Of a stretch of DNA of 64,000 bases, positions 2,847 to 59,071 are shown piece by piece. This stretch comes from a virus. Numbering within the stretch: the first letter of the stretch is position 1; the number at the start of each line of letters is the position of its first letter. Location: IMG/VR virus record IMGVR_UViG_3300032267_001142, positions 1-64,000 of that record; one strand, written 5' to 3'. Both the position numbers and the translations under genes were made by a program. The notes beneath the pieces were generated by a model that ran no database searches, had not been told where the DNA came from, and saw nothing but the letters and a program-made list of their open reading frames with translations.

Positions 2847-3929
2847 CTAGACTTCGGCGGATTCGCTGCGGTCGGAACGGGCGATTTCGACAAGCGCCAA
2901 GCGTCCCGCCTCTTTCAGCTCGTTCACCTTTTCGGGCGAGAGCAGGAGGTTTGCGAATGCCTGCTTATGCTCAGAGGCATCGCCAAACTCAGCCTTGTAT
3001 GCCTTCGTTCCCGCGTCCGCCTTCTTGCCGGTGCCGTCGCCGGAAGTCCAGAACTCCGTCGCGCCGTTCAGCATGTCGTAAAGCGAGCGACCGTTGTTTC
3101 CCTTGCCACGGAGGAAAAGGCGAGCAATTTCGTTCGCCGAATTTTCCGCACGCTTTGAGATGAGCGGCTTGTCGCTTTCCTGCGCGAAGTAGCCGAACGC
3201 GATAAGGCGAGCGTCATCCGTCGTGCAAGGCACGCCCGCAAGATATTCCATATTGGAACGGAAGCGAGCGCGGCCCGTGAGGACTTGGTTGATGAGACCG
3301 CCGAGGTTTTTCATCGCGGACTGCGCGCCCTTGGAATGGTAAACCTTGAATTCGAGATTGCCCTTTGCGTCTTCCGTGAGACTAGCGCGGAGCGTGTTCA
3401 TGCAGACGATTCGCACAAACGAATCATAAGCGCACATGCCCAGCGTGCCGTCGTGAGAAGTCACGAAGTTAAGGTTGGCGCGGTATTCGTCACCGTTGAC
3501 GGTAAACTTGCCGTCGTCTTCGGCGAGCTTCACAGAGATGAAGAACTTTTTCGCGCCTTCCAGTGTGCCGATGCAAGTGACTGTTGCGCTCACGCCACGG
3601 ATGGCTTCCGACATAACAGTCCAGACTTCGCGGTTGGAAATCTGCTGGTACGACTTTTTCGGAATGTGAAGCGGCACGTAATGCTGCGGCTGGCCGTTCA
3701 AATCTGGACGCACTGCGCCGAGGTTGGCGATAAGCGCCTTATGCGCGCTCATGGACACGGGAGCGGTGCTGCCGGTGACGTTCGCGACGATAGGTGCCTC
3801 GAAGATGTCGAAGAGAAATGGCGACGCGACCGCATCGTCGATGACGGGCTTGACGATGGCGAGCCCGTGCCATTCCGCGCCGAGGGTGGAGATGATGTTG
3901 TCGATAGGTGCAATGATTCCGTGTGACAT
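2847..3929 (-). CDS. DUF932 family phage/plasmid-like protein
   Basis: 360 residues. The sequence fits the DUF932 (phage/plasmid-like TIGR03299) family: SNREVWTVMSEAI near residue 105, a central SFVRIVCMNTLRASL and the C-terminal KAYKAEFGDASEHKQAFANLLLS region. These proteins are common in phages and plasmids, and their biochemical role is not settled. The MSHGIIAP start at 3929 follows a leader of about 50 bases containing (CAA)7. A longer reading starting upstream would translate that leader as poly-Gln and is rejected. It has its own promoter and an intrinsic terminator, so it is a self-contained unit. Confidence 0.85.
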   Translation of the reverse strand: MSHGIIAPIDNIISTLGAEWHGLAIVKPVIDDAVASPFLFDIFEAPIVANVTGSTAPVSMSAHKALIANLGAVRPDLNGQPQHYVPLHIPKKSYQQISNREVWTVMSEAIRGVSATVTCIGTLEGAKKFFISVKLAEDDGKFTVNGDEYRANLNFVTSHDGTLGMCAYDSFVRIVCMNTLRASLTEDAKGNLEFKVYHSKGAQSAMKNLGGLINQVLTGRARFRSNMEYLAGVPCTTDDARLIAFGYFAQESDKPLISKRAENSANEIARLFLRGKGNNGRSLYDMLNGATEFWTSGDGTGKKADAGTKAYKAEFGDASEHKQAFANLLLSPEKVNELKEAGRLALVEIARSDRSESAEV

Positions 3930-3965: not shown

Positions 3966-3987
3966 CGTGGCGTCTGCCACTGAAAAG

Positions 3988-30398: not shown

Positions 30399-31844
30399 AT
30401 GACTAAGACTTCTTTCTCTTTCAGGTCGGCATGCACGGTCGCCACTCAAGAACTATTCAGTGAAGTAGCTATAGCTATAATCAGTCTCACTATACTTTAT
30501 CCAAAGCTTCCAATTATTATCATTGTACCTTTAGGACAGGCGAGACTACTTGACGCGTCAATACGAAAAAACCGCAATGTAAAGATTATAGAAAGAGACT
30601 TCTCTCCTTCGCCAGAATACAAAAAACACAATAACTATCATCAAATATCTCCAATTCTCATGAAGATGGAAGCGATGAAGGTGGGTATTGATACTTACGG
30701 AGACTGCTTGTTTTTCGATGCCGACCTAACGTTCTTCGAGAAGATTGACGGCCCAGAAGATTGCGAGTTAGCTCTGTCCCTGAACCTACCCCAAGAGAAT
30801 CAAGACGGTAACGGAATGAAATACGGATTCTATAACGCGGGACTGATTTGGAGTAATAATCCGACCTTTCCTAATTGGTGGAAAGAGAAGACTCTTGAAT
30901 CTAAGGGCTTTTACGAACAGGGCTGTCTAAATATGACAGGTTCGACTTTCAGATGCGGCTTCTTCGACTTGAAGCATAATCACGGATTCTGGAGGGGCTC
31001 TATTGGAGGAAGGACAGTGAAGTCCCTGCATCTTCATCTCTCGAAAGCTCTCGACGTAGGAATGCCGAAAAATATGGTAAATAAGGTCAGAGAGGTCAGA
31101 AAAGAGGCTTGGCAATCACTATTCCCTAACACTGACCCTAGGTTAGTTTCTGAGTCAAGACGCCTTTTGGGCTTACCTCAGAAGCTATGGTTCGTTCATT
31201 ACGGCAAAGCTGCCGGAATCTATACCAACAAAATACTCAAAAACCAAGTTCTAAAGAAATACGAAATATTCGATTCTTGGGACAAGAAGCTTGGGCGAGA
31301 CTGGACTAAAGCTGAGCTGCAAGAAATTATCTTAACGGCGAAAGGGCCTACCTTTCTTCACCAGCACCACATAAATATATCAAAAGAGGAGATGTCGCTC
31401 GCCAAGAAGAACGGCTGGACGACCTTTTCTTTTCTTAGAAACCCCGCTGACATACTTTGTTCGTTGTATCACTGGAATAACGACCGTGCGGCTTCGGGCT
31501 TAGCGAAAAGCGAGGGACTAAACGCTCTTACCTCGTTGCCTTTCAGGGACTACTGGATGGAGATGCTAAAACCAGCGAACTTACATCTATGGACGGTTCC
31601 AGACTACTATGATGATATAGATTACGTCTGTGAATTCTCAGAAGACGCATTGGCTGGCCTGATATATCACCTGTTCGGCTTCGTTCATACCAAAAGTGAA
31701 CCAAAAAATGTAAGTTCAAGCAAGGGGCTTCAGGGAATGATAGCTAGCGATGAAATTGACGAGGAGATGCTGGCGGCGATATACGGACACTCTGAATATG
31801 AAAGGTTTCTGGCCTTCAGGTCTCGTAACGTTTTTACTTTTTAG
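30399..31844 (+). CDS. Glycosyltransferase-sulfotransferase fusion protein
   Basis: 481 residues, two parts. Residues 1-265 look like a nucleotide-sugar glycosyltransferase: an N-terminal ACTVATQELFSEV strand-loop, then CLFFDADLTFF (DxD, about residues 105-115) and YNAGLIWSNNP, as in GT8-like enzymes. Residues 270-481 look like a sulfotransferase: LWFVHYGKAAGIYTNKIL for the 5' phosphosulfate loop, then FSFLRNPADILCSLYHW for the 3' phosphate motif. The protein could add and sulfate a sugar on virion or host surface. Activity is inferred from motifs only. Confidence 0.7.
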   Translation: MTKTSFSFRSACTVATQELFSEVAIAIISLTILYPKLPIIIIVPLGQARLLDASIRKNRNVKIIERDFSPSPEYKKHNNYHQISPILMKMEAMKVGIDTYGDCLFFDADLTFFEKIDGPEDCELALSLNLPQENQDGNGMKYGFYNAGLIWSNNPTFPNWWKEKTLESKGFYEQGCLNMTGSTFRCGFFDLKHNHGFWRGSIGGRTVKSLHLHLSKALDVGMPKNMVNKVREVRKEAWQSLFPNTDPRLVSESRRLLGLPQKLWFVHYGKAAGIYTNKILKNQVLKKYEIFDSWDKKLGRDWTKAELQEIILTAKGPTFLHQHHINISKEEMSLAKKNGWTTFSFLRNPADILCSLYHWNNDRAASGLAKSEGLNALTSLPFRDYWMEMLKPANLHLWTVPDYYDDIDYVCEFSEDALAGLIYHLFGFVHTKSEPKNVSSSKGLQGMIASDEIDEEMLAAIYGHSEYERFLAFRSRNVFTF

Positions 31845-36753: not shown

Positions 36754-37671
36754 ATGAAATGTAAAATCTGCGGCGAAGAATTCGTCGAACCTTCTAAATT
36801 CCATCGGCATTTACCGTCCAAGCACAAAACGACGATGGAGAAGTATTACCATCAGTATCATCCGCGCCATGACCTACTGACTGGTGACCCGATTCTTTTC
36901 AAGAGTTACGATTGGTACTTCTCTTCGTTATTCAATAGTCGCTCGAACATGATTACTTTTTTCAAAAGTCATCCGAACCGTAAGGAAGAAATTTGCGCTA
37001 GGTTGATTAAGTTAGCCAAGAAAAGAAAGCAGCTCACGACCGCTCCTGATACGGTATACTCTAGGACTTCGATGCTCTTGACTCCAGCCCAGATAGCCAA
37101 AATCGGTTTGGATTACTCCTCCTTATGCGCCGCCGAAGATTTGAAGCTGACTCGTGATTACTCTATCCGCAGTATCGCAGGAAAGATTCCGGAAGATTTT
37201 GAGATAACGGTAGATACCAGAGAGCAGAAGCCTTTGGCATTCAGTGGTTTCCGATTAGTCGCTGATAAGCTCGACTTTGGAGATTACGCCTCAATTTCTC
37301 ATTTCAAGAGAGTCTTTGTAGAGAGGAAGAGCCTATCAGATTTATGCGGGACTCTTTCTGGAGGGTTTGAGCGTTTCCAAAACGAAATAAAAAGAGCGGC
37401 GGAGATGTCTTGCAATTTGGTCGTCGTGTGCGAATCTCCTATAGAGGATTTAGTCAATCTTTCTAGTTCTGTGAAGTTTACAAAAGCCTCTTCGGAGTTC
37501 ATATGTCACCGTGTTAGAGAGCTATTAAGCGCGTTTAATAACCTACAGTTCTTATTTTTGAAAAGCCGTCAAGACATGGAGATTATAGTGCCTAAGCTGC
37601 TTTATGCCGATTTCGATTTCTTCAAAGCCGACCTTCAGTATATTTATGATTGTGGCGGACTGCAAGCCTAA
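36754..37671 (+). CDS. Zinc-finger ERCC4-type nuclease
   Basis: 305 residues. A C2H2-like finger at the start (CKICGEEFVEPSKFHRHLPSKH). Then an ERCC4/XPF-type nuclease domain: ITVDTREQKPL (about residues 150-160), LDFGDY and VFVERKSLSDLCGTL (ERKxxxD). ERCC4 nucleases cut branched DNA. Beside terminase and portal it may resolve branches in replicating DNA before packaging; that role is inference. Confidence 0.8.
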   Translation: MKCKICGEEFVEPSKFHRHLPSKHKTTMEKYYHQYHPRHDLLTGDPILFKSYDWYFSSLFNSRSNMITFFKSHPNRKEEICARLIKLAKKRKQLTTAPDTVYSRTSMLLTPAQIAKIGLDYSSLCAAEDLKLTRDYSIRSIAGKIPEDFEITVDTREQKPLAFSGFRLVADKLDFGDYASISHFKRVFVERKSLSDLCGTLSGGFERFQNEIKRAAEMSCNLVVVCESPIEDLVNLSSSVKFTKASSEFICHRVRELLSAFNNLQFLFLKSRQDMEIIVPKLLYADFDFFKADLQYIYDCGGLQA

Positions 37672-41123: not shown

Positions 41124-41810
41124 ATGAATCCAGCTACGACGCCAGCATATATTCGCACCTACACCACGTTTCTGAATTTAGCAGAGAACGATAGCGGTTC
41201 ACCTAATACCGACTACCGCTCTGTGTATATTTACGCAGACGGTAATAATAGTCGTAAGCAAGTTACTCTAGCAAGAGGATTTACGCAGGACGGTGGCAAT
41301 TTATGGAAAGTTTTGCAGCGCTATATCCAGAAGGGCGGAGATAGGTCTCAGTTTTTCGCAGCGTATAAGTCAAAGATGGGTAGCGCCGTTCTGTATAAGG
41401 ACTCTGCCTTTATTAAGGCGTTGCGCGATTCTTCTATTGAGCAGAAAATGAAAGACGCTCAAGATGAGGTTTTCAATGAGGTTTACCTTTCTCCGGCGCT
41501 TAGTTGGGCAGAGAATAACGGGTTTAAGCTTCCTCTTTCTTATGCTGTTGCCGTGGACTCATATCTGCACAGCGGAAAAATGAGTGACAGAGTCACAAAA
41601 AGAATGTCACAGAAAACCCCAAGCAAGGGTGGCGACGAAAAGGCTTGGATAACTGAGTATTTGAAGATTCGATTAAGCTGGTTCGCTGGAGCCTCTGGCG
41701 CGCTCAAAACTTGCACGTTTCGTCCTAAGTTTTTCTTGGGTGAGATAGATAAGGGCAATTGGAATATGTCCTGTCCGCTATCCGTTACTGGAAAAGGCAA
41801 GATTTGCTAA
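41124..41810 (+). CDS. Endolysin, GH46 chitosanase/lysozyme-like
   Basis: 228 residues. An early Glu (LNLAENDSG) and later Asp (YRSVYIYADGNNSRKQ), then VTLARGFTQDGGNLWKVLQR, KMKDAQDEVFNEVYLSPALS and AVAVDSYLHSG follow the order of GH46-type chitosanase/lysozyme domains. Being next to a holin-like gene, it probably cuts peptidoglycan at lysis. No signal peptide, so a holin would be needed. Confidence 0.65.
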   Translation: MNPATTPAYIRTYTTFLNLAENDSGSPNTDYRSVYIYADGNNSRKQVTLARGFTQDGGNLWKVLQRYIQKGGDRSQFFAAYKSKMGSAVLYKDSAFIKALRDSSIEQKMKDAQDEVFNEVYLSPALSWAENNGFKLPLSYAVAVDSYLHSGKMSDRVTKRMSQKTPSKGGDEKAWITEYLKIRLSWFAGASGALKTCTFRPKFFLGEIDKGNWNMSCPLSVTGKGKIC

Positions 41811-44354: not shown

Positions 44355-45491
44355 ATGAAAATCCAATTCAATAAGTCTCCCGAACAGTTGCAGCTCATCG
44401 CCGCGATGGGCCACAAGGACAAGGCTATCTCCGTTCCCGCACAGGAAACGTTTGCTAACCTGCTCGCTCCCACCCTTGGCAAAGTGTTCTCTCAGGCCGA
44501 TACGTCTACCGCGTTTTATCGCGATATGCCATTCGCCGCTGACAGTGACCCGACCTTCCCTCTGGAACTCTTCACTGACACCCCTGAAGGATACTTCTCT
44601 ATCTGGTCTCAGGCGATGCCGGGCGGTCTTCCTACTAACACCGTTCACCAGCCAATCGAGGAAGTTCGTTTCCACACCTACAATCTCGATACTGCGGTGT
44701 CCTATCTAGCGAAGTATGCTCGTCAGACCCGTCTGCCGGTCATCGCTCGCGCTCTTGAGCGTCTGGTGAATACCGTGCTCGTCAAGACGCAGGGTAACGC
44801 TTGGATGGTTCTCTTCGCTGCTCTCGCAAAGGCGGAAACAAACGCAAAGAAGCACGTCTGGGCTTCTGAAAACGCTGGAGCTTTCAGCTTGACTGACTAC
44901 AACAAGTTGCTGACCTTCTTCCGCAGGCTGAACCGCTCTTGGGCAGGCGGAACTCCTGTTGGAGTTTCCTCTCGTCCAACTGACTTGGTGATTTCACCAG
45001 AAGTCATGGAAAGTTTCCGTGCGCTGGCTTACAACCCAGTCAACAGCAAGGGCGCTAACAACGTCGCTGGAACTCAATATTCGGGCGTCGTCGCCCTGCC
45101 TGACGAAGAGCGTAAGAAAATCTTCGCTACCGCACAGGCTCCTGAGTTCTTCGGTGTGAACCTGATTGAGCTTGTCGAACTCGGCAAGGGGATGCCTTAC
45201 AACATCCTGTTCAAGAACCAGATTGGTTCAACGGCCATCGCTAAGCTTGACCCAGCCGTCGCCGGAACGGTTACCTTCGATAAGGACGCTAATGAAGTCC
45301 TTCTAGCAATCGACGGAAGCCAAGATTTCGCCTACCGCGCAATCCAAGAAGACGCAGAAACGGGAAGCACCTTCTCGCTTCAGCCTGACGACCAGTTCAC
45401 GTCACGCAGCGGCAAAATCGGTCAGGTCGGCGGAATCACTGAGGGTCGTATGGTCCTCAACGCCCGTCCTCTGGTCGGTCTGGTTCTCTAA
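44355..45491 (+). CDS. Major capsid protein
   Basis: 378 residues. Placed after protease-scaffold and decoration protein, and followed by a strong intrinsic terminator. N-terminal helices (LLAPTLGKVFSQADTSTAFY), a YFSIWSQAMPGGLPTNTVHQ region and an RFRALAYNPVNSKG-type loop (ESFRALAYNP) suit a capsid subunit. No sequence motif proves the HK97 fold, but context is strong. Confidence 0.8.
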   Translation: MKIQFNKSPEQLQLIAAMGHKDKAISVPAQETFANLLAPTLGKVFSQADTSTAFYRDMPFAADSDPTFPLELFTDTPEGYFSIWSQAMPGGLPTNTVHQPIEEVRFHTYNLDTAVSYLAKYARQTRLPVIARALERLVNTVLVKTQGNAWMVLFAALAKAETNAKKHVWASENAGAFSLTDYNKLLTFFRRLNRSWAGGTPVGVSSRPTDLVISPEVMESFRALAYNPVNSKGANNVAGTQYSGVVALPDEERKKIFATAQAPEFFGVNLIELVELGKGMPYNILFKNQIGSTAIAKLDPAVAGTVTFDKDANEVLLAIDGSQDFAYRAIQEDAETGSTFSLQPDDQFTSRSGKIGQVGGITEGRMVLNARPLVGLVL

Positions 45492-52102: not shown

Positions 52103-55100
52103 ATGCCAACTAGCGTTACTAACATACAGGCTAATTTAGACATGGTGCCAGTGAGCACCAAGGTCGACAACTATCTGTCCGGACTGGAGAGAAAGACTTA
52201 CAAAATCAAATTCGACGCTCAGCCGCTTGGTCACTTAAGCGGAAAAGCCTCCGAGTTTGAAAAGTCTCTCGAAGCTGCTAATGCGCGTGTCGTCGCGTTC
52301 GGTGCGTCGGCAAGCCTGATTGCTGGCGTAGGAACCGCCATGAAAGCGATGGTCAGGGAAGCCGTTCTCGTCGACAGAGAACTTACTGACATCAATGCTA
52401 TATTGCAGGCGTCTACCGGAAACCTCCAAAAGTTTGGTGATAGTCTGTTCGATATCGCAAAAAATACAGGCTCGTCCTTCTCTCAGGTTGCCGACGCCGC
52501 TAAGGAATTTGCTCGTCAAGGTCTTTCAATGGAGGAAACGTTGTCGAGAACGAACGGAGCGCTCGTCTTGACGCGTTTGTCGGGTTTGGAAGTCCAAGAC
52601 TCTGTAAAGGCTTTGACTGGAACTCTCAATACTTTCACGAAAGAGGCTCTAGGAGTTTGGGAAGTCGTGAACCGTCTCGCGAATGTTGACGCCGCTTTCG
52701 CCGTAAGCTCGGCTGACTTGGCCACAGCTATATCCCGCGTAGGTAACGTCGCTGAAGACTCGAAAATCAGTCTTAATGAACTTCTTGCTGCGGTTACCGC
52801 AGTTCAACAGAGAACTGCACGAGGCGGCGCGACTATCGGTGAAGCTTTCAAGACCATCTTTACTCGTCTTGAGCGTTCTGACACCATCGAGAAGCTTGGT
52901 CAGCTAGGTATCGCCACAAAGAACGTAGAAGGTCAGTTGCTTCCAGCAATGCAGGTGATGGAGACCCTTGCTGACAGGTTCTATACCCTTAGCGATTCTC
53001 AGCAGTCTTACATTGCCGAAGCGGTCGGTGGAGTTCGTCAGTTAAACATTCTGAAAGCTCTTCTCAAGGACTTGGGCTCGGAATATTCGATTTATAAAAG
53101 CTCCTTAGACGTAGCCAACAATACGACTAACGAGGCTACGACCAGAAATAACCTTCTCAATCAATCATTAGCCGCTCTTAAAAATAGGGCGTCGGTAGAT
53201 TTTTCTAAGTTTTCTGCGGCGACTCAGACAGCTTTCGCTCCCGCTTTGGAAAAGATATTTGGAGGATTTTCAGAAGTCGTCGCGGGCACGAATCTAGAAT
53301 CTAGTGGTAAGAGCATGGGAGACGCCATATTGAAAGGTCTGGGCTCAGTTATCTCGGGGCCGGTCTTGCAAGCCGTCACCGTTTTGGGTGTTAAATTCCT
53401 AGCTCAGTTTTCCGGTTTCGCGGCGAAGTCGTTGCAGCAGGTTCTTAATATCGGTAGCGTTTCTCGTAACGAGCTAGCCTTGCAGAAGGACATAAACGCC
53501 GTATTAGCTCAGACGCCTCACCTATATGACCAGATTCTTACAAAAGCTAAAAGTACTGTAGATGTTGTTCGTATTCTTTCCGAACACACAAAAGAACTAC
53601 AACTTGCAGGAGCGAGACAAACAAATATAGTAGGAGGCTCAGCCGCGCTACTCAACTCGTTAGGAGCTAAAGGCTCGTCTGAAGGAAATGGAAATTTTAA
53701 GCTAAAAGCTTCTGGATTCGTGCCTAATTTTGTAGACCCTATCGCGGCAATGGGGGAAGTCGCTAGTGCAAAACGCGCAGGGTATAACATATCACCTTCT
53801 GAGGTGCGCTCTATGCGGGCGCGTATTGACGGACGTAGCACTGAGGTTGTTTACAACACCCGCGAGACTGTAATCCCTAATTTTGCAGGGACCGGAGAAC
53901 CGGCGATAGTTCCTCCTAACGCGTCTATCTCTGACCTTATTAGCAGAAAATATGCCGCGAAAGGCGTCATGCCGGGCGGGCAAGAGCTAATTGGAAAAGG
54001 CTCATATCGCCGAGTATATACTCACGAAAAGGGAATAGAAAGCATTCCTCGTTCTGCTGAAGAGGTTTATCCTTCTGTTTCTAAGTTCATGACGCTGGAC
54101 GACGTTAGGGAGCTTATGGCCAGAGAAAGGCGTACGCGGCCAGCGTTGCAGAAGTCTATTGGAGACTTGGGCCTCGGACCAAAAGTATTCGATATTAGGG
54201 AAGACGGTTCTTATGTGGCCGAAAGAGTTTTGATGCCAAAGCTATCGGAGGCTTTAGCCGCAGGAACGATGACCAGTAAGGAAGCTTCTTCCATTCTGGA
54301 GAAAGCAAAGAAATCGCTAAAGGCCAAGGGTCTCGGAAATCTAAACGACGTAACATTTAATAATGTTGCCGGTAACGTAAACACGGGCAAGTTTTCTGTT
54401 TTAGATTTTGGTGGCGGGTTCGTCCCTAATTTTGCGAATTATTTTTCCGCGCCTACGAAGCGCTCAGAGCAACTGCCAGCCGATTTCCTTGAAAAGCTTC
54501 GTTTTCAAGGCCACATGCCTCGCGTTAGAATTCCCGCTAAAGATTTGGCGGTTTTTACGCCTGAGACTTTTAATTTCGGCATAGGTGATGGTTATGCTAG
54601 CCCTTTGGAGGCTGGGACTCAGCTTTACGGATACGGCAAAGAGGACATCGCTGAAAAACTAAGAGTTCCAACCGTGAACGGCGTGGCTTATGACGCCGGT
54701 ATTTCTGCTAGATACGGTAATCTAATGAAGGGTTTAGCTGGGCGAGGCGAGGCTGGAGCGGTGCTTCAGTCCATATTTGAAGACCAAGCTAAGAAAGGTA
54801 ACGACCGCATTATGCACGGTTTAGCTGTCGACGCTGGCGCGGTTTTCAGTTTGAAGACCGATGCCGGAAAGTCTCGTAGCTATCGCGATAACGGCCCCGA
54901 CAGTAGTGGCAAAACTTTTGAATCTGATTTCTTTAGGCAATATTTGAGTGGTTCACCTCTGCCGTCCTCAAACCAGCCGGTAGACGTCTCGGCAGCGAAT
55001 ATTGAAAAACTTAGGTCTGGAGATTTCAAAGCCTCATTGCCCTCTTGGATAACCCGTGGAGAATTAAAGATTTCGGCCTTTGAGTATTCTCAGCGCCGTG

Positions 55101-58100
55101 GCAAATCAACAGGAGCTTCTCCTAGCATCAGCCGTATCGTCGCTAATGAGCTTGTGTCGCGCCTCGACGAAGCCCTGCCAGCGATAATCTCTGACCCATC
55201 GGAGCTGAGAAGGGCTCTCAACGAAAAAACCAGAAAAGGAGAGACTTTCGGCTCAGTCCTGTCCAGAACTGCAAAATTGAACCCCGCCATATACAAGGGG
55301 CGCGGATTCGTTCCTAATTTTAGCTCCTCTCAAATTTCAGCGAGAGAGGCTATCGCGAGCGGTCTTACCTCTCAGATTCCTGGTCTCGGCGAAGCGATTT
55401 CTAGAGAAGTTTCTGGAACAGGCGTCTCTTTGGATGATACGAGAGTAAACCTCGGCGGACATTTGCCAGTTTCAGTAACAAACGTCAGAGACGAGGGACC
55501 ATTAGCTCTGCCTGAAATAGGCGCTGCCAGAGTTTCTAGAAGAGGCGGAAATCCTCGCTTAGCAGGAAGCGGAAAAGAGTATCTATCAAGAGGTTACGTT
55601 CCTAACTTTGCGACCGAAGACGACGAAGGTTTATTGATGCCTAGCAGCTCAAATCTGCCGGATAGAATTGTCGTTGTTGAGGTTAAAAATGCAAACGAGC
55701 TTGGACAAAAAATAGGCAATGCCGTAGCCGATGCAGACAAAAAGGCCAGCACTTCCGCTGGGACCGACACTAAAAATACGCCAACCGCTCCGAAGGTCGT
55801 CACTCCTCCTGTTTCAAGCTCCGAGAGCTTTCTTGACGGGGGAGACATAGCCCCGTCTAAGGACAAAGAGGAGGCTATAAGAAAAGACAAAGAAGATACT
55901 CGCAGAAATCAACTCGCCTTGGAGAGGGAGGGCGAAGCTTATCAAAAACGCAGGGAGTCCAAGGCTAAATGGGAGCAAAGGGCGATATACGGAAGCCTTG
56001 GCGTTTCGTTCTTAGGTGGCGCTATATCTAGTCAGTTTGGTGGAGATACTATCTCTGATAGAAAGACGGGCAGAAGAGTCGACGCCGCTGGAGAAGCCAT
56101 CTCTACTGGCTTAGGTGCATTTTCTGCAACAGGCAACGTTTACGTTGGAGCTGCTGCTGCGGTTGGTAGTTTGTTATTCAATTTAGGCAAACTAGGGACG
56201 ACTTTTGAGGACTTAGCAAAAGAGAGCGAAAAGCTTACCGCGAAGCATGCTGAAGTGACTCAGTCGCTTTCTGGGTTCTCGGTCGCGGTATCGCAGACTG
56301 ATGACTTAATCAAAGGCGGAGCCTCTAAGTCTGCTATTTTCCGAGCGCAGCAAGCTGAACAGGAGGCGTTCAATAGAACTCCGAAGGAATTACAGTCCAA
56401 GCTTCTCGCGGCGAATCGCGACCAAGAGACTCTCGCTAAAATACAAATAGACATAGCCAAAGAGCAAGAAAAAGAAGCTGCATTCGCAAATCTTTCTACC
56501 GTATCTAAAGGATATCAAGAAAAGGCTTACAAAAACCGAGGCTTTTTCGAGAGAGTGGGTTCAGGATTGGGACTTCCTTCGCTTGCTAACTTCGTCGCTG
56601 GAGCCACCGGCTTGAAGAAAACGGACGAGCTTAGTTCAAGTAACTACGATAAAGATGCTTATAAAGAAATCTCCGCCCTAATCCAAAAAACCGGCATTCT
56701 AGATAATCTCGACAACTCTCAACTGTCAGAATTGCGTGATAAACTAAAAGCCGCTCAATATACAAGTGCTAACGATTCTGCTTCGCTGACTCCTAATCAA
56801 AATACCCAAGCTAGAATTGCCGCTGTCGTAAAGCAACAAACTGGAGCGTCGTTGCCCGAAGAGTTTTCAGAGACCAATGGGACTATCGCCATCAAGGCGT
56901 TCTTGAGCGCCATCACTGGACAAGAAAATCTAAAGAGGTTTACTGACGCGCAGAAATCAGCTCAAGCTTTTTATATTTCGATTCGTTCGCTTTCTACCGC
57001 GTTTCAAGAATCGCAGAGGGCTACGTCAGCTTACGATAGCTTCGTGACTCAGAAAAGCTCTTCCGCCGCAGGTCTGGCTTTTGGCGGACTCCGTGGTATT
57101 GCGTCGTTAAACGAGCCATTTACATCTAGCGATTCAAAAATTCAAGAATCTTACAGAATTTCTAAAGCAGAAATCGAAACTTCAAGAAGTCTTGAACTCG
57201 AAAAAGCTCGTAACGAAGCAAGGGTTAACTTGAGTCAGGCAGTCTCTCCTCAAGTTATCGAGGAGGCGGTCTCAGGTAAGGGAGGAATAGCGTTTAAGGC
57301 CAACTTGAGGGAAGTTCTCGCGCAGGCGCAAACCGGAGACCCTTCTGTTATCGTCGCGAGACTATTATCATCTTTGGAGAATGCGAAAAATGGGAAAGCT
57401 GAAGGCGTTAGCGTAAGTGACTCCGCAGGAGCAGAACTCATAAGTACGCTCAAGACTTTACTATTCAATCAAAACTCGACAAAAGCCTCAATCAACGCGT
57501 CATTTAACGACAAATCTAACGATGCGTTTCAACAGGCCGGACTCGCTAGGACGGGAGCTGCGCTGGATTTCATAGGCAATCAGTTCAGGGGCTCTAAAGC
57601 CTTTTCGAGTGATGGTCAAGACATTTCGACTTCTTCTAAGGGATTTGCGGCGATACTAGAGGGAATAACGTTAACCAACGATAAGAGCGCGCAGAGACGT
57701 TTCAGACAGAGCTACAATAATCCCGTCGGCCCATTCGGTCCTGCGAGAGCTAATTTGGTATATGACGCCGAGCAAAAGAAGCTGCCGATATACGAAAACA
57801 TTGCGGCAGGAATCAAGGACGACGCCGCAAGCGGTCTTGGACCTACTCAGGAATTGGTTGATTTTCTAAACCGACAGGGTCGCTCGGCTGAAGCGGAAAA
57901 AGCCGCGAAAGGTCTTGCTCGAAATAGAGCCAGACTAGAAGGAGCTTACAGCGCGCAAGGCAAGAGCTTTCTGCAAAAAAACGGACTCGCTGATTTCGCT
58001 CAATTCAAAGACGCCATAAAAGGTGATGTCTTCGAGGGCTCATCTGGAGGTCGAGTTGATATATCTAGGACTTTGAATGATGTAGAAGCTGCCGTTAAGT

Positions 58101-59071
58101 CTACTGACTTCGGAAAAGCGCAAAGTCTTCTTTCGGGTTTGAGAACTTCTGCCAGCCCAATAGCCGCTAAGAAAATCGACGAATTTTCACAAAGAATCGG
58201 CGGTCTTAAGAGTCAGTCAGAATTACTGGGCGTCTCTGCGAATCTGCAAGCCGCTAAGGACTTGAAAGGCGGCGCTGGCCCACTTACAAATGATAAATAT
58301 TGGGAGGGCGTAATAAAGCTTTATGGCGCGTTGGTATCAAGGTTGACTTATTCGGAAAACCGCGAAGCGGTCGATACCGTAATGGGTTCTTCATTAGGCG
58401 CACTCAAAAATATTACATCTCTTGGGGCGAATCCCGCTGCAATTTTTACTTCTGGGGCTTTCAGCACCACGGGCGCAAAACTCAATAGCGAGGTTGAGGC
58501 TACTAGACTCTCATTGAGTGCCGCGATGGATAAGGCCACTCCTAAATTTGTAGACCCAAGACTGCCTCAGTATTCCGAAATTTATGCAGGACCGCAAAGA
58601 AGAGTGCAGGACGCTATAACTGCTTTACCTGCTGGCACTGGTGTCGATAAGAGCATGGTGGCCATCATGAGTGATGGTTACGGCGCTGACAGGGAGTCTA
58701 CCGATAGAAGGGTTTATGAGGACTTCGCTAGAATTCTGCGTGAAAATAACAAAGTCGGCTCGTTGCTAGGTTCGACTCCTACTAATGACATAGTGGGTAG
58801 CGTTATGAACGCGGTTAATGATGCGCTGCGTCGCGACGTAGGCAATCGTTACGAATCTGGGAATCTCGGCAAGGATATCAAGGTAAACACTGATGGGACA
58901 ATTACTCTCAACGCTTCTGTAAATATCAAAGCCGACGAGTCGGATGTAGCTCAGAGAGTTAAATCGGAATTCGATAAGGTGTTTGAAAATCTTCAGTATC
59001 AGATTCAACAAATCATCAATCAAACTGGGGCGGTAATTCCTCCTAGGTCGTTCAGTCAGCCTGTTCAATAA
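52103..59071 (+). CDS. Tail tape measure protein with embedded kinase-like module
   Basis: 2322 residues. The N-terminal 400 residues are typical of tape measures: GVGTAMKAMVREAVLVDREL, a VADAAKEFARQGLSMEETLS repeat region and ISLNELLAAVTAVQQRTARG (TP901-type core). From residue about 535 to 1170 the motif GFVPNF recurs five times (535, 588 as VIPNF, 770, 1066, 1163 as GYVPNF), dividing the chain into blocks. The block at 625-770 looks like a small protein kinase: GKGSYRRVY loop, SKFM lysine, ERV-LMPKL hinge, ND...NN, and LDFGG. The block at 776-1066 is alpha/beta of unknown type (a FE..E.K-like nuclease is only a guess). The rest is helical with a hydrophobic stretch near 1300-1370. It sets tail length and may deliver the blocks into the host. 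Confidence 0.9.
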   Translation: MPTSVTNIQANLDMVPVSTKVDNYLSGLERKTYKIKFDAQPLGHLSGKASEFEKSLEAANARVVAFGASASLIAGVGTAMKAMVREAVLVDRELTDINAILQASTGNLQKFGDSLFDIAKNTGSSFSQVADAAKEFARQGLSMEETLSRTNGALVLTRLSGLEVQDSVKALTGTLNTFTKEALGVWEVVNRLANVDAAFAVSSADLATAISRVGNVAEDSKISLNELLAAVTAVQQRTARGGATIGEAFKTIFTRLERSDTIEKLGQLGIATKNVEGQLLPAMQVMETLADRFYTLSDSQQSYIAEAVGGVRQLNILKALLKDLGSEYSIYKSSLDVANNTTNEATTRNNLLNQSLAALKNRASVDFSKFSAATQTAFAPALEKIFGGFSEVVAGTNLESSGKSMGDAILKGLGSVISGPVLQAVTVLGVKFLAQFSGFAAKSLQQVLNIGSVSRNELALQKDINAVLAQTPHLYDQILTKAKSTVDVVRILSEHTKELQLAGARQTNIVGGSAALLNSLGAKGSSEGNGNFKLKASGFVPNFVDPIAAMGEVASAKRAGYNISPSEVRSMRARIDGRSTEVVYNTRETVIPNFAGTGEPAIVPPNASISDLISRKYAAKGVMPGGQELIGKGSYRRVYTHEKGIESIPRSAEEVYPSVSKFMTLDDVRELMARERRTRPALQKSIGDLGLGPKVFDIREDGSYVAERVLMPKLSEALAAGTMTSKEASSILEKAKKSLKAKGLGNLNDVTFNNVAGNVNTGKFSVLDFGGGFVPNFANYFSAPTKRSEQLPADFLEKLRFQGHMPRVRIPAKDLAVFTPETFNFGIGDGYASPLEAGTQLYGYGKEDIAEKLRVPTVNGVAYDAGISARYGNLMKGLAGRGEAGAVLQSIFEDQAKKGNDRIMHGLAVDAGAVFSLKTDAGKSRSYRDNGPDSSGKTFESDFFRQYLSGSPLPSSNQPVDVSAANIEKLRSGDFKASLPSWITRGELKISAFEYSQRRGKSTGASPSISRIVANELVSRLDEALPAIISDPSELRRALNEKTRKGETFGSVLSRTAKLNPAIYKGRGFVPNFSSSQISAREAIASGLTSQIPGLGEAISREVSGTGVSLDDTRVNLGGHLPVSVTNVRDEGPLALPEIGAARVSRRGGNPRLAGSGKEYLSRGYVPNFATEDDEGLLMPSSSNLPDRIVVVEVKNANELGQKIGNAVADADKKASTSAGTDTKNTPTAPKVVTPPVSSSESFLDGGDIAPSKDKEEAIRKDKEDTRRNQLALEREGEAYQKRRESKAKWEQRAIYGSLGVSFLGGAISSQFGGDTISDRKTGRRVDAAGEAISTGLGAFSATGNVYVGAAAAVGSLLFNLGKLGTTFEDLAKESEKLTAKHAEVTQSLSGFSVAVSQTDDLIKGGASKSAIFRAQQAEQEAFNRTPKELQSKLLAANRDQETLAKIQIDIAKEQEKEAAFANLSTVSKGYQEKAYKNRGFFERVGSGLGLPSLANFVAGATGLKKTDELSSSNYDKDAYKEISALIQKTGILDNLDNSQLSELRDKLKAAQYTSANDSASLTPNQNTQARIAAVVKQQTGASLPEEFSETNGTIAIKAFLSAITGQENLKRFTDAQKSAQAFYISIRSLSTAFQESQRATSAYDSFVTQKSSSAAGLAFGGLRGIASLNEPFTSSDSKIQESYRISKAEIETSRSLELEKARNEARVNLSQAVSPQVIEEAVSGKGGIAFKANLREVLAQAQTGDPSVIVARLLSSLENAKNGKAEGVSVSDSAGAELISTLKTLLFNQNSTKASINASFNDKSNDAFQQAGLARTGAALDFIGNQFRGSKAFSSDGQDISTSSKGFAAILEGITLTNDKSAQRRFRQSYNNPVGPFGPARANLVYDAEQKKLPIYENIAAGIKDDAASGLGPTQELVDFLNRQGRSAEAEKAAKGLARNRARLEGAYSAQGKSFLQKNGLADFAQFKDAIKGDVFEGSSGGRVDISRTLNDVEAAVKSTDFGKAQSLLSGLRTSASPIAAKKIDEFSQRIGGLKSQSELLGVSANLQAAKDLKGGAGPLTNDKYWEGVIKLYGALVSRLTYSENREAVDTVMGSSLGALKNITSLGANPAAIFTSGAFSTTGAKLNSEVEATRLSLSAAMDKATPKFVDPRLPQYSEIYAGPQRRVQDAITALPAGTGVDKSMVAIMSDGYGADRESTDRRVYEDFARILRENNKVGSLLGSTPTNDIVGSVMNAVNDALRRDVGNRYESGNLGKDIKVNTDGTITLNASVNIKADESDVAQRVKSEFDKVFENLQYQIQQIINQTGAVIPPRSFSQPVQ

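Follow-up and report, generated by a model that had tools for sequence, protein, structure and literature searches.

The tape measure protein (TMP) encoded in the stretch of DNA analyzed here (64,000 nt, referred to below as the window and part of a virus record of 186,105 bases) appears to carry a minimal kinase-like domain, with an N-lobe, a catalytic loop, and a DFG motif and without a C-lobe, as one exchangeable cassette. The TMP belongs to a family with a conserved scaffold and exchangeable cassettes whose borders lie at a short peptide motif, and several cassette families have kept their catalytic residues. We favor, at a probability of roughly 60%, a model in which the kinase-like module is one swappable cargo cassette of the TMP and the cassettes are most likely delivered to the host at injection.

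Organization of the tape measure protein

The ORF at 52103-59071 (Table 1) matches PF10145 in Pfam over residues 119 to 309 (E = 1.5e-28) and many PHROG TMP families (best value, 1.9e-52), and the terminase and portal genes sit upstream of it. Its N-terminal scaffold (residues 22 to 608) has a mean column identity of 61% in a 13-sequence alignment. A pattern search of the window returned four G[FY]VPNF matches, compared with 0 expected, and all four lie within TMP residues 538 to 1169. The first is followed by a linker, unit A, which is matched by a profile built from other TMPs (i-Evalue, 9.8e-9); a second linker, unit B, lies ahead of the last motif, and its profile match is weak (E = 0.0016 against the window TMP alone). 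The cassette next to the kinase-like one (TFESDFF ... RGELKIS) is tentatively PD-(D/E)XK-like: it gave no match in Pfam, and its resemblance to module cluster 9 is weak (E = 3e-4 in a database of three sequences; score, 8.2).

Two other interpretations of this layout were rejected. A VIPNF sequence at residue 591 is not a cassette border, as it falls within linker unit A; a comparable VPNFAG is seen there in L156 and L178. An assembly chimera is contradicted by the unbroken ORF and by family similarity on both sides of the cassettes, over residues 22 to 608 before them and, weakly, over residues 1059 to 1185 after them (E of ~2e-4).

Table 1. Features of the TMP gene in the window
Feature	Position (nt)	Strand	Basis
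TMP, 2322 aa, single uninterrupted ORF	52103..59071	+	PF10145, PHROG TMP families
Conserved N-terminal TMP scaffold, residues 22-608	52166..53926	+	Similarity to other TMP ORFs
Border motif 1, GFVPNF, residues 538-543	53714..53731	+	Pattern search
Linker unit A, residues 551-608	53753..53926	+	Profile match
Kinase-like cassette (probable), residues 617-771	53951..54415	+	Motifs, motif statistics, hhalign, end-to-end alignment, A7 columns
Border motif GFVPNF, immediately 3' of DFGG	54416..54433	+	Pattern search
Second cassette, residues ~778-1067, tentatively PD-(D/E)XK-like	54434..55303	+	Weak cluster 9 match
Border motif GFVPNF	55304..55321	+	Pattern search
Diverged linker unit B, residues 1095-1158	55385..55576	+	Weak profile match
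Last border motif, GYVPNF	55592..55609	+	Pattern search
TMP C-terminal part after the array, presumed rest of the ruler	55610..59068	+	Length comparison with complete TMPs

Three other genes of the window, all on the plus strand, deserve mention. The gene at 41124-41810 encodes a glycosyl hydrolase family 46 (chitosanase family) domain (E = 2.6e-14) and is found among the structural genes, between the portal and tail genes, an unusual place; its product is possibly a lysis or wall-degrading enzyme. Directly 3' of the large terminase gene is an ERCC4-type nuclease gene (36754-37671; Pfam, 4.8e-8; PHROG, 1.3e-13), and the gene at 30399-31844 has a weak match to a PHROG annotated as galactose-3-O-sulfotransferase (E = 5e-4).

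A TMP family with a repertoire of cassettes

Short-peptide patterns found no direct relatives of the module, of the TMP, or of the ORF at 44355-45491 in IMG/VR; a DNA pattern for the border motif then retrieved the family. Scanning IMG/VR for DNA encoding GFVPNFA, GFIPNFA, or GYIPNFA gave at least 272 motif-bearing ORFs besides that of the window. At least ~160 IMG/VR ORFs match the first 608 residues of the window TMP, and identity to its N terminus is 30 to 47% for at least 149 TMP ORFs from other contigs aligned over >400 aa. In most best matches, the similarity stops at residues 604 to 624, just ahead of the glycine-rich loop (G-loop) of the kinase-like module at residue 629. The cargo region of these TMPs consists of cassettes, most of them enzymatic, delimited by G[FY][VI]PNFA peptides. 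This array, of which the kinase-like module is one cassette, is a larger pattern that the sequence-only reading of this DNA had missed. A separate group (L022, L069, L087, L111, and L199) has ORFs of ~1820 aa with a single GFVPNF at ~1630, near the C terminus.

At least 347 sampled intermotif modules of at least 105 aa fell into at least 94 clusters by single linkage. Cluster 8, whose profile matches PDB over positions 10 to 132 (E = 6.3e-10), is a thermonuclease; such staphylococcal-thermonuclease-like cassettes are found in the TMPs at L002:3269-3892, L063:1744-2340, L052:8751-9344, and L109:588-1127, with invariant residues in the catalytic region. The E, D, K pattern of PD-(D/E)XK nucleases is kept in 16 sequences of cluster 1, and the R, S-x3-S, E-x-E pattern of ADP-ribosyltransferases (ARTs) is kept in cluster 13 at 30 to 80% identity. 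Cluster 12 is GNAT-like (Pfam, 9e-4), cluster 2 is a P-loop family, cluster 14 is HAD-like (D-x-D-x-T), and L020 holds a HIGH-NTase-associated region (3.4e-8). Apart from the thermonuclease, the HIGH-NTase-associated region, and in part the GNAT-like family, these putative labels come from conserved catalytic patterns rather than from significant database matches. The HAD-like (A10) and ART-like (A12) profiles gave nothing significant in comparison with PDB.

The commonest cassettes are those of cluster 0 (at least 104 modules; for example, L096:5773-6909) and cluster 1 (at least 37; L005:4739-5497), the former with a weaker form of the PD-(D/E)XK pattern of the latter; their occurrence in most arrays suggests that they perhaps have a core function. 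Cluster 22 (L121:3233-3832 and L173:812-1393) contains an HExxH stretch, FHEASH, and is perhaps a zincin able to process the chain.

We considered whether the cassettes could be cell-wall-degrading domains of the type long known in TMPs. Muralytic TMPs do exist, and those of the SPbeta group, annotated as lytic transglycosylases, are distant relatives of the TMP described here. However, no muralytic family was detected in Pfam comparisons of 64 module representatives, and the cassettes that could be recognized look like enzymes whose substrates are nucleic acids, proteins, or nucleotides, making this explanation scarcely credible.

Kinase-like cassettes of at least five types are present in the motif-bearing TMPs, represented by the window and L085; L219, L214, and L157; L150; L008; and L080. 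In L219, L214, and L157, the Lys, Glu, DLHxxN, and DPG residues are invariant, and the L080 cassette is similar to actin-fragmin kinase (E = 0.011). Kinase cluster A8 had no match in PDB or to the PHROG 4301 profile, so its assignment as a kinase is drawn solely from its invariant catalytic residues. The Lys, Asp, and DFG residues, or close variants of them, are kept by the kinase-like cassettes of other TMPs rather than lost in all relatives, the outcome that the sequence-only reading of this DNA had set against its own claim.

The kinase-like cassette of the window

That reading had quoted six kinase motifs within the TMP, and all six are present in its plus-strand ORF in the order given, spanning residues 629 to 771: the G-loop LIGKGSYRRVY (residues 629 to 639, nt 53987 to 54019), SKFM (660 to 663), RELMARE (669 to 675), YVAERVLMPKL (704 to 714), LNDVTFNN (747 to 754), and VLDFGG (766 to 771, nt 54398 to 54415). 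The G-loop, D749, N754, and the DFG at residues 768 to 770 follow kinase order and kinase spacing, with N754 five residues after D749 and D768 14 residues past N754. The HRD His is absent, as is the C-lobe, since the cassette stops at DFGG and the next border motif starts at once. Candidates for the beta-3 Lys (K661) and the helix-C Glu (E670 or E675) are present, although the profile alignment places none of them firmly; the Lys of SKFM is loosely placed, ~10 residues farther from the G-loop than in free-standing relatives.

The pattern D-x4-N followed by hydrophobic-hydrophobic-D-[FY]-[GA] arose with a frequency of 1.75e-4 in 200,000 shuffles of residues 641 to 776, and the same pattern with an upstream Lys and Glu arose with a frequency of 2e-5; both values are optimistic, because the patterns were written after the motifs had been seen. 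Among the 273 motif-bearing ORFs listed (459,675 residues), only those of the window and L085 combine the G-loop with the catalytic pattern, a combination found in 0 of 200 shuffles of the whole motif-bearing ORF set.

Compared alone with Pfam, PHROG, and PDB, the module gave chance-level matches only, and PHROG 4301 was not among its PHROG matches. A DNA pattern for the G-loop, applied to IMG/VR, retrieved L085, chance matches, and small free-standing phage proteins (L222, L224, and L225) that are members of PHROG 4301, a family listed as being of unknown function; its homologues in Pseudomonas phages sometimes carry a kinase annotation. PHROG 4301 (L222:2288-2812, L314:124-738, and relatives) seems to be a family of phage kinases that lack the C-lobe, because a profile of nine such proteins matched only kinases in PDB (23 of 23 matches, at weak E values of 0.18 to 1.4). 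When 512 intermotif modules were searched with this profile, L085 ranked first (1.7e-5) and the window second (0.031).

In hhalign, the L085 cassette matched the PHROG 4301 profile at 92% over 114 columns. The corresponding value for the window cassette was 59%, with only the G-loop aligned confidently, and it rose to 79% against a wider kinase profile (A13, from which the window was excluded), the confident part being the 15-residue G-loop. A forced end-to-end alignment of the window cassette extends over the hinge region, D-x4-N, and D[FY]G. It has a global score of 29.0, whereas the best of 150 full shuffles scored 13.1. When the G-loop was preserved in the shuffles, 1 of 150 attained the global score and 7 of 150 attained the local score. 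When nine kinase-like sequences were aligned without supervision (A7), the invariant columns correspond to window residues G631, G633, D749, N754, G757, and G770, and the A7 profile, which includes the window, matched only kinases in PDB (33 of 33, at weak E values of 0.03 to 3.2).

The module might not be a kinase at all: its glycine-rich loop, similar to the one in PHROG 4301 proteins, could belong to an unrelated fold, with the motifs after it arising by chance. The shortness of the confident profile match, the shuffles that attained the local score, and the lack of a Pfam or PDB match for the module by itself are what such a protein would be expected to give. In contrast, the low probability, by composition, of the catalytic loop plus DFG, the near absence of shuffles reaching the global score, and the clearer kinase-like cassettes in other TMPs of the family argue for a kinase, and we regard a chance resemblance as quite unlikely.

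Structure prediction did not corroborate the kinase-like module that the sequence-only reading had placed inside the TMP, whereas the profiles and motifs upheld it. The AlphaFold models of the cassette had a pLDDT of 42 for the single sequence and 53 with the nine-sequence A7 alignment, and Foldseek returned no match to them at E values of ≤0.001. Sequence thus makes the kinase reading probable, and the low-confidence models and the Foldseek comparison do not show it.

These poor models, together with the displaced beta-3 Lys and the absence of the HRD His and C-lobe, are also compatible with a pseudokinase or structural domain, derived from a kinase and noncatalytic, which would bind ATP or proteins or would fill space in the tail or plug it. 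No close relative of the window module was found by which constraint on its residues could be gauged. On the other hand, D749, N754, and D768 are all retained at kinase spacing, the sister family of L219, L214, and L157 has invariant catalytic residues, and the ART-like and nuclease-like cassettes retain theirs. A noncatalytic role thus seems unlikely.

Cassette exchange at the motif

Cassettes are gained, lost, and swapped by recombination with borders in the motif-coding DNA. The N termini of L204, L193, L074, and L003 are 89 to 95% identical, and those of L061 and L093 are 93.6% identical, yet their cassettes differ. The L193 and L204 reading frames are 89% identical in DNA up to nt 1908 of the alignment, the first motif ending at 1905; similarity restarts at 2433/2439, seven bases ahead of the FIPNF codons of the next motif (2440/2446). 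An extra cassette in L193 lies between two motif copies, with similarity lost at 3126 and regained at 3966. Since DNA similarity ends and restarts only a few bases from the motif, the motif-coding DNA is the cassette seam.

In 50 complete TMPs, the array measures 422 ± 214 aa and the C-terminal part measures 1321 ± 177 aa, with a correlation between the two of 0.17. This weak correlation of protein lengths would fit a ruler with an independently varying payload.

Fate of the cassettes

For other phages, it has been established that the TMP travels within the tail and arrives at the inner membrane as the genome is injected. The lambda TMP is labeled next to the inner-membrane protein ManYZ during injection and is recognized by the SNIPE nuclease (PMC13190303). 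In the model that we propose, the TMP with its cassettes would ride in the tail to the inner membrane during genome injection; because TMPs reach this site, the cassettes would most likely be delivered into or onto the host cytoplasm. There they would fold and act ahead of phage transcription, either on host proteins by modifying them or against defense by blocking it; for the kinase cassette, this would mean phosphorylation of a host target. The sequence-only reading had likewise proposed that an enzyme embedded in the TMP could act in the host at DNA entry. Delivery into the host and catalysis by the cassettes are thus what we infer. A point against delivery is that domains of 150 to 400 aa must cross the tail tube, probably unfolded.

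The cassettes could instead work in the cell that makes the virions or while these are assembled, for instance by being excised at the motif as the tail forms, and never be injected. A folded domain is hard to fit into the tail tube, and the A-[AS]-x-G sequence that flanks the motif, ahead of [FY][IV]PNFA, might be a cleavage site for a protease. However, rapid exchange suits a conflict with the recipient host, and the nuclease, ART-like, GNAT, and kinase domains make up a repertoire similar to that of proteins whose injection along with DNA is predicted (PMC5512222). We therefore consider action confined to the producing cell an improbable account, and prefer delivery at injection.

Hosts and significance

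In INPHARED (50,697 phage records), no close member of the family was found, the TMP matches being only ~24 to 29% identical, and one relative (L030) had no nucleotide match among named phages. Seven family loci lie in contigs of bacterial metagenome-assembled genomes (MAGs; Flavobacteriales, Neomarinimicrobiota, Halobacteriovorax, Verrucomicrobiales, and others). Together, these observations assign the family to uncultured phages; the MAG-binned contigs (Flavobacteriales and other aquatic bacteria) are host leads, and the hosts are putative. A literature search, with preprints and most subscription journals outside its scope, found no description of such enzyme cassettes in phage TMPs or of the motif.

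TMPs are usually viewed as rulers and membrane channels, with at most cell wall enzymes attached. We give even odds to a broader model, in which widespread uncultured tailed phages use the TMP as a modular carrier of enzymes (kinases, nucleases, ARTs, and acetyltransferases), shuffled at GFxPNFA, to deliver a rapidly evolving arsenal for host takeover or counterdefense into the host cytoplasm before phage genes are expressed. If true, this would be a route of virion delivery whose payload is joined to a component already bound to cross the envelope alongside the DNA. It would permit action before any phage transcription, at the point where membrane-bound SNIPE recognizes TMPs (PMC13190303). 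Many uncharacterized, phage-selected enzyme domains could be found via one short motif, and the passage of large domains through the tail tube and their folding beyond it become testable.

Comparison with known systems

Muralytic TMPs of the SPbeta YomI group also hold an enzyme domain within a TMP, and their N-terminal homology to the window family is distant (24 to 29%). Theirs are cell wall hydrolases, in contrast to the cytoplasm-acting enzymes proposed here, and we know of no cassette exchange among them. T4 Alt is packaged in the head and the T7 kinase is made after entry; unlike the cassettes, neither belongs to a TMP. Alt, an enzyme carried by the virion, is injected along with the DNA, and T7 gp0.7 is a phage kinase that acts on host proteins (PMC5512222).

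The PHROG 4301 proteins (for example, in Sphingobium phage Lacusarx and Pseudomonas phage AN14) resemble the window cassette in their G[KE]GS[YS]RxVY G-loop, D-x4-N, and DYG, and their chains end soon after, but they are encoded by free-standing genes of 140 to 260 aa outside the TMP, at ~20% identity to the window module. Sle1 and Tme, TMP-related effectors of Streptomyces contractile injection systems, combine a TMP-like scaffold with exchangeable functional domains and are loaded into a tail-like tube (PMC13277306; PMC11126660). These are bacterial injection systems, however, with one C-terminal domain in each effector, no internal array, and no border motif described.

Polyvalent proteins of phages and conjugative elements contain kinases, ARTs, GNATs, and nucleases, and their injection alongside the DNA has been predicted (Iyer et al. 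2017, PMC5512222). As in these proteins, several disparate activities are combined in one chain in the TMP family, the window having a kinase-like and a tentative nuclease-like cassette. Their kinases have lost the C-terminal subdomain with the active site kept (PMC5512222), and the window cassette, which ends at DFGG, likewise lacks this subdomain. PMC5512222 makes no mention of TMPs, however, and polyvalent proteins have no GFxPNFA seam, while the carrier here is a conserved tail ruler. The window system would thus be a variant of injected multienzyme proteins with the TMP as the carrier; its nearest counterparts are the polyvalent proteins in kind and Sle1 and Tme in carrier.
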